In this document: piece by piece, positions 1,585-8,976 of the stretch | Layout: every line of letters starts with the position of its first letter | How positions within the stretch are numbered: the first letter of the stretch is position 1 | NCBI GenBank assembly: GCA_019114225.1 | Contig: DXFW01000020.1 | Span: forward strand, 62,001-126,000 | Reading direction: 5' to 3' | Source of the DNA: Candidatus Allofournierella pullicola | Lineage (GTDB): Bacteria > Bacillota > Clostridia > Oscillospirales > Ruminococcaceae | DNA length: 64,000 bases | Made by a program: the position numbers and the translations under genes | The notes under the pieces: generated by a model | Told to the model about the DNA's origin: nothing | Seen by the model: the letters and a program-made list of their open reading frames with translations, nothing else | Databases searched by the model: none

Positions 1585-1624
1585 GGGCCGGGCCTTCGCA
1601 TACGCGAACGCCCGGCCCTCATTT
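1585..1624. terminator. bidirectional rho-independent terminator
   Basis: A perfect nine-pair outer stem (1585-1593 with 1610-1618) plus five more pairs around an ATAC loop, followed by a T-rich stretch on the plus side and an A-rich stretch on the other. It separates the convergent genes ending at 1559 and 1624. Confidence 0.85.
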
Positions 1625-2388
1625 TATTTGTTCTTTTGCAGCACCAGCAAATACCGGTGGATCGTTCCCTCCACCACGCCATTCTGCTCCAGGATCTCCT
1701 GTGCGCGGTACAGCTGCTCCCGGCAGGTTTCCACCGAAAAGCCCGGGAACTCCCAAGGCAGCACGCGGGCGAACCACACCAGCGCCCCTATATCCCAAAA
1801 CCGGATGGGGCGAAAGGCTTCTTCCCCGCGCAGCACTCGCAGTCCGGCGCTTTTCACCGCCTCGGCGGCGCAGGCGAGTGTTTGCTGCGGGAAGGGCAGC
1901 GGCAATTCCCCCAGCAGCAGTTCCACCAGTTCCCGGTCATTTTTCGCTCCCACTTGTTCGGTGATGAACGTTCCGCCGGGCCGCAGCAGGCGGCTGATTT
2001 CCGCCGGGTCATAGCTGCCGTGTCGATTCAGAATCAAGTCAAAGGTCCCATCGGCAAAGGGCAGAAGCCCTTCGCCGTCCGCCTGTTCAAACCGTATCCC
2101 CAGCGGGGAAAGCCTCCGGCGGCAGAGATCCGCGTTGGGCGGCCAGCCCTCGGTGGCGCTGGTTTTATTGTGGGGGTGTTTCAATGACAGCAGGAACTCC
2201 CCTCCGCCGGTGTCCGTATCAAGAAGCTTCCTGTCCGGCTGCAAAAACGCCCGCACCACCTGTGCATAGTCCCAGGGCAGGTCCTGCTCTTCCTCATAGC
2301 GCCCGCGCAGGTGGGAAAAATCCCAGCCCTTCATCCGCGCCGCGTCCTCTTCCTGCAGCCATTGGCGATACAGCTCTGTTCTGTTCAT
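1624..2388 (-). CDS. class I SAM-dependent methyltransferase behind a structured leader
   Basis: A 254-residue Rossmann-type methyltransferase. Motif I appears as LLDTDTGGGEF near residues 55-65 (the usual acidic-glycine loop), a motif II-like GIRFEQADGEGLLPFADGTFDLIL near 97-120, and a post-I segment RLLRPGGTFITEQVG near 133-147. This is the YcgJ/UbiE-like fold with no visible target-recognition domain, so the substrate is unknown. The SD (AAGGAG, 2398-2403) is nine bases from the ATG and forms one arm of the outermost helix of the upstream leader. That implies translational control, as is known for some resistance methyltransferases; whether this enzyme confers resistance is inference. Confidence 0.8.
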   Translation of the reverse strand: MNRTELYRQWLQEEDAARMKGWDFSHLRGRYEEEQDLPWDYAQVVRAFLQPDRKLLDTDTGGGEFLLSLKHPHNKTSATEGWPPNADLCRRRLSPLGIRFEQADGEGLLPFADGTFDLILNRHGSYDPAEISRLLRPGGTFITEQVGAKNDRELVELLLGELPLPFPQQTLACAAEAVKSAGLRVLRGEEAFRPIRFWDIGALVWFARVLPWEFPGFSVETCREQLYRAQEILEQNGVVEGTIHRYLLVLQKNK

Positions 2389-2535
2389 TCAAAACCGCTC
2401 CTTTTCGTAGTCGTCTGTACGATCCGGTGCAGTTCGCTGATAACAGTTATTTACTCGATGCAGTCTGTTATCAGACGTATCACTGCACCGAGAGATTACC
2501 TCGAAGGAGCGTCATTCCGACTTCACCGCCTTTCA
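2389..2535 (-). promoter_or_regulatory. structured leader with nested helices sequestering the SD (putative translational attenuator)
   Basis: Three nested perfect inverted repeats lie between the promoter and the methyltransferase: 2396-2403 with 2504-2511 (8 pairs, includes the SD), 2425-2433 with 2482-2490 (9 pairs), and 2437-2446 with 2465-2474 (10 pairs). Two small side hairpins may form (2411-2422 and 2489-2503). The 5' strand of the outer helix is complementary to the SD, so the folded RNA should hide the ribosome site. A short ORF (2480-2515) overlaps the anti-SD strand. The alternative is a miniature inverted-repeat element that happens to have inserted here. Confidence 0.65.
2480..2515 (-). 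CDS. 11-codon leader peptide ORF upstream of the methyltransferase
   Basis: An ATG at 2515 opens an ORF encoding MTLLRGNLSVQ and ending in TGA at 2480. A near-consensus SD (AGGCGGTG, complement of 2524-2531) is eight bases upstream, close to the predicted 5' end of the transcript. Codons 2-4 are the anti-SD strand of the outer leader helix and the last codons enter the second helix. A ribosome paused here would therefore release the methyltransferase SD. Translation of this ORF is inferred from position and SD only. Confidence 0.5.
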   Translation of the reverse strand: MTLLRGNLSVQ

Positions 2536-2541
2536 AAATTT

Positions 2542-2571
2542 ATGATACCACAGCGACGCTTTGCCGGTAAA
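2542..2571 (-). promoter_or_regulatory. extended -10 promoter of the methyltransferase leader
   Basis: On the minus strand TTTACC (2566-2571), an 18-base spacer and TGG-TATCAT (2542-2547, an extended -10). The predicted start near 2535 would give a leader of about 147 bases. Confidence 0.55.
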
Positions 2572-2751
2572 TATGCCAGCCGGGATACAGCAACAAAAAT
2601 ATTGTAAAAGGACTGGTTTTTCCCAATCGGGTTTTGTATGATAAAAGTAGAGCTTTGCGGTCCGCTTCAGCATTCGCCAAGGACGCACCGCACTCTTTCT
2701 CGCGTAATTTTCAAACCATATTTCGAAACACTCTTCGAGGAGGAATCGAAT

Positions 2752-3854
2752 GTGAAAAAGGAATTGGAAAAAAGCGAACTTATGCCCATAGTGAAAAAGC
2801 CCCGAGTGCTTTTGGAAAAGCAATGGGCAGCCTGGGCGCCCATGCAAAAGAGACTGTGACCAAGGCACAGAGCACAGTAATGCACGTTGTGGATAAGAAT
2901 GGCAACGGCAAAATCGACGCCGAAGACTTTGGTCTGACCCGCGAAAATCTGGAAGGCGCAGGTGAAACAGTGAAAGGCGTTGCCATCGCTGCCGGACACG
3001 GACTCAAGGCAGGAAGCGCCGCTATGGGGAAAGCCTTTGTCGAAGCTCGGCTGGAACTGGACCTCAAGACCTTAAAGCCGGTTTTCCCGGACACGCTGCC
3101 CTTTTCCATCAACGACCCTCATGCTGAGGCAGCACAGCCAAGCATTTTGTCCATCGTCGCACGCGATAAAAAAAGAAGCGAGAGCGAGGTGTGCCGTGGT
3201 GCGGTAGGATACTACCAGTCTGCAAAAGGATACGAACTGTTGAATCTTTACGAGGACTATGTGTCGCAGTCTGCACTGGCTTTTTATCCGGCCGCAACCA
3301 AGGGAATTTTCCTGGCAGACCCGTATCAGGTGGGAGTTTACATTGCCCTGGACGAATACTTCGACTTTATCCGCAAAGCCCTTGTAAACGAACTGGAAGT
3401 TGTGGCTCAGGATCTCGGTGCCAAGCATGTTCGTATCAGTTTCAAAGAGGACAAAAAGTCGCTGGTCGCACAGCAGGTTCAAACAAAAGCCAAAACAAAG
3501 CTCGAATCCATGTCTGCAGAGCATTCAGCTTCCGTAGACGAATTCTCCAGTGTAGAAATTGCCGCCGACGTAAAATTCAGCGGTCATGACTCTCCTGTCG
3601 CTCCGCCCCTTGTTTATTTCAAAAACGAGAGCGATATTGTGAAGCTTGTCCGCATGCGTACCAGCGACGGGTCCAACAAAATCGAATCCAAAACTTACCG
3701 TTTTCAGTGCAATCGCCTGTTCGGCGCCAAAGAGGACGACTCCGCGCAAATCAGCGCAATCCTGAATGGTATCAAATGCACCGGGTCAGCCTCCTTCAGC
3801 CAAAACATCCAGCGTGAAAGCCGGACTATTCTGGAATACAGTATTGAATTCTGA
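2752..3854 (+). CDS. EF-hand-like cytosolic protein with an apparent frameshift near its start
   Basis: The main reading frame is open from 2634 to 3854. From about 2800 on it reads as a coherent protein of roughly 350 residues, beginning around SAFGKAMGSLGAH. It contains one canonical EF-hand/dockerin-type calcium loop (DKNGNGKIDAEDFG, about 2893-2934), then an alanine-rich helix and a C-terminal alpha/beta region; no signal peptide is seen. The best start, a GTG at 2752 with GAGGAGG eight bases upstream, is in another frame: it encodes a lysine-rich VKKELEKSELMPIVKK head that ends at 2859. Joining the two frames at about 2795-2800 would give a sensible N-terminus, implying a one-base loss, a sequence error, or -1 slippage. 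Alternative in-frame starts are TTG 2634 and ATG 2823, both with weak ribosome sites. Function is unknown. Confidence 0.55.
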
Positions 3855-6854: not shown

Positions 6855-6890
6855 CCCCTGGCAAGTGCCAGGGGCGTTTTCGTTTATTTT
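6855..6890. terminator. bidirectional rho-independent terminator
   Basis: CCCCTGGC (6855-6862) pairs with GCCAGGGG (6867-6874), flanked by T-rich sequence on the plus side and an A-run on the other. It serves the convergent genes ending at 6848 and 6884. Confidence 0.85.
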
Positions 6891-7642
6891 GCCCAGTGCT
6901 CCACCACGTCCCGCAAAAGCTGCGCGCAGCCGGGCACCTCCCGGTCATAGTAAGCGGTGAACCGCTCGTCCAGCACATACAGCTGGGCAATGCCCCGATG
7001 CTTTTGGGGCGTCAGGTCTTTCACCGTCACCGCCAGCCAGCGGCGGTGCAGTGCATAGAGTTCCTTGCCCTCCTCGCTGCCGGGCGCAAGGCCTGCCTTC
7101 ACGGCTGCTTCCAGCCTTTGGCGCAGCTCGGCATCCAGCGCGTTCCACGCGTCGTACTGCTCCTGCGTCAGACCCATCAAACTGGCGTTGGTGGCATCCA
7201 CCGCCCCGTCGCCATATTTTGCCCGGGCCTCTTCGCCGTGGGCGGCCTCGTTCTCCGCCACCAGTTTCGCTTTCAGGGCGGCAAATTTCTTTTCGTCCTC
7301 CATAGGCTCCTTCCTTTCTTCGCAGCCGATGGTCTCTTTCACCGACTGAATCAGGTCTTCCAGCCGGGCTTTCTGCGCCTGCAGGGCAGCCAGGTGCTGC
7401 CGCAGGGCGGCCAGCCGGTCAAAGGAGGGCGCGTCCAGACATTCCCGGATACGGGCCAGCTCCACCCCGAGAGCCCGGTAAAACAAGATGTCCTGCAGCC
7501 GGTCCACCTGGGCCGGGCCATAGTAGCGGTAGCCGCTCTCGGCTACCCGGCCGGGCTTCAGCAGGCCGATCTCGTCGTACCAGCGCAGGGTGCGGGTGGA
7601 CACCCCCGACAGGCGCGACAACTCATGGATGGAATATTCCAT
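6884..7642 (-). CDS. MerR-family regulator with TipAS antibiotic-recognition domain
   Basis: A 252-residue TipA-like regulator. Residues 1-70 form the MerR winged helix (YSIHELSRLSGVSTRTLRWYDEIGLL, ESGYRYYG), a coiled coil spans about 75-115, and the C-terminal 130 residues match the TipAS domain, an all-helical pocket that in Streptomyces TipA binds thiopeptides. An internal methionine near 113 with an upstream AAGGAGCC could allow a short TipAS-only product, as known for tipA; this is an inference. The promoter at 7666-7696 has the 19-base spacer characteristic of MerR-controlled promoters, so autoregulation is likely. Confidence 0.85.
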   Translation of the reverse strand: MEYSIHELSRLSGVSTRTLRWYDEIGLLKPGRVAESGYRYYGPAQVDRLQDILFYRALGVELARIRECLDAPSFDRLAALRQHLAALQAQKARLEDLIQSVKETIGCEERKEPMEDEKKFAALKAKLVAENEAAHGEEARAKYGDGAVDATNASLMGLTQEQYDAWNALDAELRQRLEAAVKAGLAPGSEEGKELYALHRRWLAVTVKDLTPQKHRGIAQLYVLDERFTAYYDREVPGCAQLLRDVVEHWAK

Positions 7643-7665
7643 GCTGCTCCCTCCTTCCTGCTATC

Positions 7666-7696
7666 AGTGTACCAGTTGACGTTACGGCAGAGTCAA
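7666..7696 (-). promoter_or_regulatory. MerR-type promoter/operator with 19-base spacer
   Basis: On the minus strand TTGACT (7691-7696) and TACACT (7666-7671) are 19 bases apart rather than 17. An inverted repeat TTGAC/GTCAA (7676-7680 and 7692-7696) lies within the spacer. This is the classic geometry of promoters that MerR proteins untwist. Confidence 0.7.
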
Positions 7697-7750
7697 GAGG
7701 GAAACGAAATGTTTCTGAAAAGAATTTTGCCCCGGGGCAAGTGGCGAAAA

Positions 7751-8413
7751 TCATTCGTTCAGGACTCCGTCTGTCAAGGTCAGAATCCTGCTTGCGGCCT
7801 TTGCCACATTGCTGTCATGGGTGATCTGCAGAATGGTGTTGCCCTGCCGGTTCAAATCGCGGAACAGCGCAAGGATTTCCTGCCCGATTTTTGAGTCCAG
7901 CGCACCGGTGGGCTCGTCGGCCAACAGAACCGCCGGGCGGGTGATGAGAGCTCTTGCAATGGCAGCGCGCTGCTGCTGCCCGCCGGAAAGCTCGTTCGGT
8001 TTATGGGCTTGCCGCTCTGCCAGGCCCACCATCTCCAGAATCTCCTGCGCCTTTTCCTGGGCGCTTTTGCGGTCTATGCCCCGGATCAGCAGCGGCATCA
8101 TCACGTTTTGCAGCACCGAGTATCTGGGAATCAGATGATATTTCTGAAAGATGAAGCCTATCTTTTCATTCCGGATGACCGCCAGCACGTCCGGTTCGCT
8201 TTGCTCCACGGAAATGCCGTCGATGGTATAGCGGCCTGTATCCAGCGTGTCCATGCAGCCGATGATGTTCATCAGCGTGGACTTGCCGCTGCCGGACGCG
8301 CCGAGGATGGACACAAACTCTCCCCGTTCCACCCGCAGTGATACATCTTTCAGCACATGGAGTGAATTTTTGCCCACGCGGTAGGATTTGTTGACGTCCT
8401 CCAGGCAAATCAT
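7751..8413 (-). CDS. MacB/LolD-type ABC transporter ATPase
   Basis: A 220-residue ATPase with all motifs intact: Walker A GASGSGKST near residue 40, Q-loop IFQKYHLIPRYS, signature LSGGQQQR near 138, Walker B VLLADEPTGAL near 158 and the H-loop ITHDS near 195. The family exports lipoproteins, peptides or drugs with a MacB-like permease and a MacA-like fusion protein. The start at the ATG 8413 is just after the TGA of the lipoprotein remnant (8416). All three partners upstream (8416-11504) are damaged, so this may be an orphan ATPase in a dying operon. Confidence 0.9.
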   Translation of the reverse strand: MICLEDVNKSYRVGKNSLHVLKDVSLRVERGEFVSILGASGSGKSTLMNIIGCMDTLDTGRYTIDGISVEQSEPDVLAVIRNEKIGFIFQKYHLIPRYSVLQNVMMPLLIRGIDRKSAQEKAQEILEMVGLAERQAHKPNELSGGQQQRAAIARALITRPAVLLADEPTGALDSKIGQEILALFRDLNRQGNTILQITHDSNVAKAASRILTLTDGVLNE

Positions 8414-8415
8414 GA

Positions 8416-8976
8416 TCACATCACCATCAGATGTTCCACCACGCCGGTGGTCTCATTTACGATCACCTGCACAAGGCTCCCCTTGTTCACGGCGTCAAGG
8501 CTGACTTCTTTGCCCATCGCATTGGTGATTTTCGCACCGGCCGGAATGGTGAAGTCGCGCACTTCTCCGGTGAACTCGATGGGCAGCTGCTCCGCGGGCG
8601 CGTTGCCCGCGCTTTCGTCCGTTCCGCTCTCCGCCGCGTCATCCGGCATCGGGACGATGATGGTGGTCGTGTTCTCGCCGGCAAACGCCTCGTCGTCTCT
8701 GGGGCGAATTTCCTGATTGCCATTTTCATCCACGTAGGCCACCTCATCGGAACCCTCGCTGCTGTCCAGCACAATTTCGCCCAGGCTCAGGGTGATGTCG
8801 TTGCCCACCTTGTCCGACACCTGGCCCATATAGCTTGCGATTTTCACTGTCTATTCCGCGGCTTCGGGGGCGCTTTCGGCCTGCGCCGGCACAGAGGTTT
8901 CGGCGGGCTGCCCCGAACAAGCGGCCAACACAAAGGCGAGGGTAAGAGCAAGTGCAGTCACGATCGAATTTTTCAT
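8416..8976 (-). pseudogene. lipoprotein gene interrupted by an in-frame amber codon
   Basis: An ATG at 8976 opens a lipoprotein signal peptide (MKNSIVTALALTLAFVLAACS; lipobox LAAC at residue 20). After 41 codons the frame meets TAG at 8851-8853. The same frame continues open from codon 43 to 8416 with a Glu/Asp-rich beta-type domain (GQVSDKVGNDITLSLGEI and so on). A GTG at 8847 could restart translation but would make an unexported fragment. A CAG-to-TAG change is the simplest origin. The intact protein would be an envelope lipoprotein of the MacAB-type operon. Confidence 0.75.

Follow-up and report, generated by a model that had tools for sequence, protein, structure and literature searches.

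Is the RNA leader in front of a methyltransferase gene a switch that senses ribosomes, and if so, where must a ribosome stop to open it? The question arises from the minus strand of the 64,000-nucleotide stretch of Candidatus Allofournierella pullicola DNA analysed here (the window), where a reading of the sequence from position 2571 to 2388 gives a promoter, three nested helices and, behind a Shine-Dalgarno (SD) sequence that is close to perfect, an ORF of 11 codons. The reading we favour, at a probability of roughly 0.75, is that of a ribosome-sensing translational attenuator belonging to a new RNA family, in which the SD of the methyltransferase is opened by an early stall on the leader ORF.

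The promoter, located by consensus scan and in the sequence, consists of TTTACC (2571-2566), an 18-nt spacer and a TG-extended TATCAT (2547-2542); from its position, transcription should start near 2535. Since shuffled sequences yield 0.6 sites in the scan, compared to 1 here, the promoter is weak when taken alone. The leader ORF (2480-2515) encodes MTLLRGNLSVQ in 11 codons followed by TGA; its ATG (2515-2513) lies about 8 nt 3' of an SD region (AAAGGCGGTGA, 2518-2533) that is kept as an SD-like sequence in homologues. On the RNA, the leader codons are followed by segments B, C, D, E and F and then by the SD of the methyltransferase. Segment B (CTCGGTGCAG, 2483-2492) lies within codons 8-11 and can pair with D or with F; C (CTGATAACAG, 2465-2474) pairs with E (CTGTTATCAG, 2437-2446); D (CTGCATCGAG, 2454-2463) is conserved within the loop of the closed form and is an alternative 10-bp partner of B; and F (ACTGCACCG, 2425-2433) binds either B, as an antisequester, or the SD region of the methyltransferase, as a sequester. 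Folding also gives a small hairpin, TCGTA...TACGA (2405-2422), adjoining that SD (AAGGAG, 2398-2403), which is 9 nt 5' of the methyltransferase ATG at 2388.

The outermost helix joins codons 2-4 (CGCTCCTT, 2511-2504) to the SD (AAGGAGCG, 2403-2396) over 8 bp; the second, of 9 bp, pairs CGGTGCAGT (2490-2482) with F (2433-2425), and the innermost, of 10 bp, is C:E (2474-2465 with 2446-2437). An earlier note on this DNA had listed these three helices together with the extended -10 promoter and the 11-codon ORF with its near-consensus SD, and all of them lie on the minus strand where it had placed them. The minimum free energy (MFE) of positions 2535-2380 (156 nt) is -53.5 kcal/mol, compared to -38.1 +/- 3.74 for 200 dinucleotide shuffles, none of which was as low (z = -4.1). 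A scan of positions 2380-2720 found no terminator-like site in the window leader, a result that favours control at the level of translation.

Homologues of the leader were found in Oscillospirales, in Lachnospiraceae-like and Paenibacillaceae-like genomes, and on Lactiplantibacillus plasmids, mostly 5' of the same methyltransferase. According to a protein search, closely related methyltransferases are encoded by other Fournierella, by Lachnospiraceae bacteria and by one uncultured Oscillospiraceae; the leader was present at six of nine loci with a close methyltransferase and absent from three. Close methyltransferases without a leader were seen at L011, L013, L015 and in Fusobacterium vincentii (L048). 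With a 21-nt pattern the leader was detected in 6 of the 198 genomes of the family, the control giving no match. A covariance model run over 398 genomes of the phylum returned five leaders adjoining the methyltransferase and one before a transporter of the major facilitator superfamily (MFS), a weak match inside a coding sequence (L035) being left out of the count. In the same 398 genomes, the methyltransferase profile exceeded 360 bits in exactly the five leader-bearing genomes; six distant homologues at 226 to 262 bits had no covariance model match, and the leader was absent from those of their upstream sequences that were read. A wider model gave matches in 21 of 199 genomes of a Paenibacillaceae-like family (that of G418), 23 of 299 of a Lachnospiraceae-like family (that of G341), 7 of 260 in the class of G418 and 5 of 196 in the class of the window. 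Two of the leaders (L095 and L098), situated close to the ends of their contigs, were located by the coordinates that the covariance model gave.

Do the substitutions among these homologues preserve the structure? In a 13-row alignment, 11 pairs show two-sided changes, a number equalled by none of 500 shuffles, and 94% of cells are paired, compared to 24 to 56% in slid controls; in the smaller curated alignment, the B:D pairing was supported more weakly (14 of 500 shuffles). With 63 distinct rows (up to three of them antisense self-matches), B:F is paired in 93.3% of cells, C:E in 93.0% and B:D in 92.9% (29 to 40% when slid; 19 to 40% over all slid controls), and two-sided changes occur in six of nine, eight of ten and five of ten pairs, respectively; as the leaders are phylogenetically related, these counts are not independent. 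Two foldings, B:F with C:E on the one hand and B:D on the other, thus show compensatory changes in about 60 leaders. Because B:D and B:F share B, they are mutually exclusive, and the RNA is therefore a two-state one.

The ORF, its start, its frame and its SD are likewise kept across the approximately 60 leaders. The earlier note had named conservation of MTLLRGNLSVQ in relatives as a check: frame and start are conserved, but the residues encoded by B are not. S is replaced by L or P, V by G, I, A or M, and Q by R or a stop codon, with pairing mostly re-established; at L103, where the peptide is MKHLRGIYSI followed by a stop, the change of Q to a stop codon leaves both B helices restored. As substitution or loss of these amino acids mostly goes together with restored pairing, the constraint on B bears mainly on the RNA. 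Selection on the peptide RGNYSVQ was considered and is not supported, its S, V and Q changing or vanishing in the same way. From these comparisons, the leader ORF seems to need translation only as far as about codons 5-10. No arrest motif is evident in the leader peptides.

How the SD is locked was examined in 59 leaders by comparing duplex energies with those of shuffled partners. Segment F pairs with the SD beyond shuffles in 37 of them, codons 6-9 in 16, and codons 1-5 (codons 2-4 in the window) in only four, namely the four Fournierella leaders. The outermost helix, which the earlier note had taken as the lock, therefore exists in the window and is a local variant; it does not extend to the family. 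F varies together with the sequence next to the SD, for example ACTGTACT with AGTACAGT in L092, a leader that precedes an ABC exporter. On the comparative evidence, the family-wide lock is predicted to be segment F, and segment B of the leader is in competition with the SD for it. Not all SDs of the homologues are predicted closed when the 59 leaders are folded.

To model the position of the ribosome, a mask of 30 nt, taken as its footprint, was moved along the leader and the RNA folded at equilibrium (other footprints were also run). In 32 of the 59 leaders, SD accessibility was sharply maximal when, counted from the first base of codon 5, the front edge had advanced by 12 nt, compared to five of 59 when the intervening RNA was shuffled. 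The predicted stall position brought no gain for the SD in 12 of 59 leaders, and the Paenibacillaceae-like leaders L036, L071 and L074-L076 showed essentially no specific opening under masking. The distance from the P site to the front edge of a ribosome is usually 15-16 nt, which places codon 4 in the P site at the optimal edge. The model thus predicts maximal opening with the front edge just before B, at about codon 4 in the P site, and codon 5 (CGA, Arg; 2501-2503), according to masking and leader comparison, would be the A-site codon of the inducing stall. The earlier note had likened the layout to exactly that of erm and cat genes; on this point it is not borne out, the best opening being predicted for a ribosome stopped before B and not on it.

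The switch may then work as follows. The leader ORF would be translated from its own SD. In the idle state, or after a ribosome has passed, the SD of the methyltransferase would be locked in either or both of two ways: throughout the family by F, whose CTGCACC pairs with GGAG..., and by codons of the leader, which are 6-9 in many relatives and 2-4 in Fournierella. In this closed state B could be held by D. A ribosome stalled early, with its P site at about codon 4 and its A site at codon 5, would cover those leader codons that pair with the SD, together with the start of B:D, and leave enough of B free to form B:F, with C:E inside; F being engaged by B, the SD would be released and the methyltransferase translated. 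Stalling on B itself would free F and lock the SD again. The likely cause of stalling is a compound of lincosamide, phenicol, pleuromutilin or macrolide type that inhibits early elongation, and protection against this compound is probably the task of the downstream gene. The ORF, the helices, the covariation and the exclusive pairings are computed; the stall position we infer.

Could a simpler attenuator of the erm/cat type account for the same observations? Codons 2-4 alone would then hold the SD, a ribosome at any place on the leader would free it, and D and F would be mere parts of a long hairpin. The window taken alone fits this well: CGCTCCTT/AAGGAGCG is its strongest SD partner (-14.3 kcal/mol, p 0.01) and is present in the MFE structure of the free RNA, and SD accessibility rises from an unpaired probability of 0.09 in free RNA to 0.5-0.8 for nearly every placement of the ribosome. 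Such a codon 2-4 partner is nevertheless confined to the Fournierella leaders, and in different families D and F are kept, with substitutions that compensate each other, which would not be expected of D as a mere loop; we consider this explanation unlikely. Because the codon 2-4 lock opens with a ribosome anywhere on about codons 1-5, the gate of the window is broader than that of its relatives. Somewhat less probable again is an attenuator that senses a charged tRNA (for example that of Arg, read at CGA) or the general speed of translation in place of an antibiotic. Almost all leaders from Clostridia have CGA as codon 5, and its distance to B is constant, but although most leaders have Arg there, several have Tyr, Phe, Met, His or Leu, and the downstream genes (methyltransferase, exporters, radical-SAM proteins, MFS transporters) are not amino-acid genes.

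The strongly conserved structure 5' of the methyltransferase might also be expected of an RNA that binds a protein or a metabolite, in the manner of a riboswitch, with the ORF incidental. Against this, ORF, SD and frame are kept, the mutual pairing of B, D and F accounts for those nucleotides that are conserved most strongly, several gene families share the element, and a search of Rfam 15 gave no match up to E = 1 for the window and only one unrelated tRNA for 20 homologous loci; this makes a binding RNA improbable. As for a miniature inverted-repeat element without regulatory role, it would explain the nested inverted repeats, and at L023 the leader MRILRGNYSVQHI, with partly decayed helices, adjoins a transposase-like ORF in place of the methyltransferase. 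A DNA search of the genome, however, returned no second copy of the 116-bp inverted repeat (the remaining matches being chance 14- to 17-mers), and the covariance model found one site; a mobile repeat is thus excluded by the single copy. Its position before the start codon is moreover fixed and its substitutions are compensatory, not decaying, so that such an origin can be set aside almost entirely. The translational attenuator of the earlier note (a leader ORF with an SD-sequestering RNA) has therefore come through both of the comparisons by which that note had proposed to refute it, as leader and helices are present in homologous loci with compensatory changes and the repeat occurs nowhere else in the genome.

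The attenuator we favour is a widespread version of a known kind of device, a variant in mechanism and not a new kind, and its RNA family, which has no match in Rfam, would be a new one. Literature searches with a scope that left out most subscription journals found no paper for the leader peptide string and only known attenuators for comparable systems, and are consistent, within this incomplete coverage, with the view expressed earlier that no attenuator had been described for this methyltransferase family. The smtA motif (PMC11109978), an RNA of more than 350 nt from Thioalkalivibrio, is unrelated.

Among the closest known attenuators are those of the erm(C)/cat-86 type, treated in the discussion section of PMC4191407. 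Like the window leader, in which no terminator was found, they have a sequestered downstream SD, helices that form alternatively and a short ORF in the leader that is served by an SD of its own. They differ in that the order here is B-D-F-SD, with B:D and F:SD in the locked form and B:F (with C:E) in the open one, that the ribosome is predicted to stop before B and not to cover the first segment, and that the downstream genes are unrelated. In the bmrB-bmrCD system of Bacillus subtilis, too, a leader peptide is combined with drugs that target the ribosome and with an ABC exporter, the last being found behind some homologues here; its 53-codon bmrB ORF, however, has a terminator inside and acts on transcription (PMC4191407), whereas none was found in the window leader. 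The tylosin-inducible leader of yxjB, which encodes a methyltransferase, depends on NusG-dependent pausing (PMC6851288), and vmlR has a tripeptide uORF (MIN), transcription attenuation and an SD-sequestering hairpin (PMC9226507). Both resemble the present element in a small uORF that senses ribosome inhibitors, yxjB also in its methyltransferase and vmlR in its SD hairpin, and differ from it in pausing or transcription attenuation. For bmrB, yxjB and vmlR, the distinction is drawn from their descriptions and not from their sequences. The plasmid genes tet(M), tet(O), tet(W) and tet(S) (L026-L029) share a leader ORF, ATGCGGCAAGGTATTCTTAAATAA, encoding MRQGILK; this too is a short ORF, before a ribosome-protection gene, but the sequences, read directly, are different, and a relation was rejected.

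What the switch would control in the window is a class I SAM-dependent methyltransferase of 254 aa (1624-2388, minus strand; Pfam Methyltransf_11, 1e-8). An AlphaFold2 model built with an alignment of 16 homologues reached a pLDDT of 94. Its top Foldseek match was RlmA (1p91; E 1.1e-14, TM 0.58), also the second profile match (1.5e-5); in structural comparison the Z score of 1p91, 16.6, was tied with many class I enzymes, including small-molecule ones. RlmA/TlrB enzymes, which are 23S rRNA guanine methyltransferases, have an N-terminal Cys-rich zinc site. The alignment to 1p91 starts at its residue 51, and the RlmA-type zinc site is absent, as there is no Cys among the first 80 residues encoded in the window. 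No Erm/KsgA-type model matched above cut-off, Pfam giving only Methyltransf_11/25, and the sole Erm-named NCBIfam match, Erm(32), a guanine-748 N1 enzyme, scored 19.5 bits against a cut-off of 550. At L085 the methyltransferase ORF continues in frame into a sequence resembling a dicarboxylate symporter; the fusion is probably an assembly junction.

The leader also precedes other genes: ABC exporters (L086, L087, L089, L090, L092, L093, L096 and L103), radical-SAM/SPASM proteins (L088, L094 and L099) and MFS transporters (L033 and L105). An order-level scan around the first MFS case yielded no further example, and the second comes from another member of the class. This gene company, the carriage on plasmids and the architecture together point to an antibiotic response; distribution and gene company are computed, and it is from this company, plasmids and architecture that we infer induction by a drug and, with it, the inducer and the role of the enzyme. 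Such leaders normally sit on resistance genes, so that four poorly characterised protein groups become likely defences against ribosome-targeting compounds. We propose more tentatively, with the odds leaning slightly against it, that a mobile family of Bacillota attenuators acts as a position gate, which would open before the decision helix and re-lock further on, and whose coupling to at least four gene families would single out the genes for the methyltransferase, the ABC exporter, the radical-SAM enzyme and the MFS transporter as inducible and as conferring resistance to inhibitors of early elongation. As an RNA switch the element is compact, testable and strongly supported by comparison, and it occurs in gut Clostridia, in Paenibacillaceae-like bacteria and on Lactobacillus plasmids; its segment arrangement suggests tuning to a single stall position, and further leaders can be sought with the covariance model.

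Some neighbouring and related loci deserve mention. In the window, an ORF without Pfam match and with an EF-hand-like stretch, DKNGNGKIDAED, is divergent from the methyltransferase (2709-3854, plus strand), and about 4.5 kb from the methyltransferase (6884-8419, minus strand) a MerR-TipAS drug-binding-type regulator is the neighbour of a MacB/LolD-type ABC ATPase. The MFS gene of L033 is apparently frameshifted near its N terminus, and its leader is readable in two overlapping frames. Candidatus Fournierella merdipullorum has two diverged copies of leader and methyltransferase on different contigs (L007 and L009). BLASTN with the 147-nt leader against plasmids and phages and a pattern scan of viral_contigs gave no match, the plasmid homologues surfacing only through the methyltransferase protein search. 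In a related genome (L020), the methyltransferase is followed directly on its 3' side by an ORF like a phage-type integrase (2644-3021 of the reverse complement), which suggests mobility. On Lactiplantibacillus and Levilactobacillus plasmids the methyltransferase is found between repA and mobQ, and the Lactiplantibacillus plasmids that were read have the leader, with the peptide M[E/Q]IKYDNCSVQL. On plasmid p3 of Lactiplantibacillus pentosus (L049, leader before 4001), the start codon is CTG, compared to ATG in the sister plasmids; this is a natural start-codon variant, which could be silent or altered.
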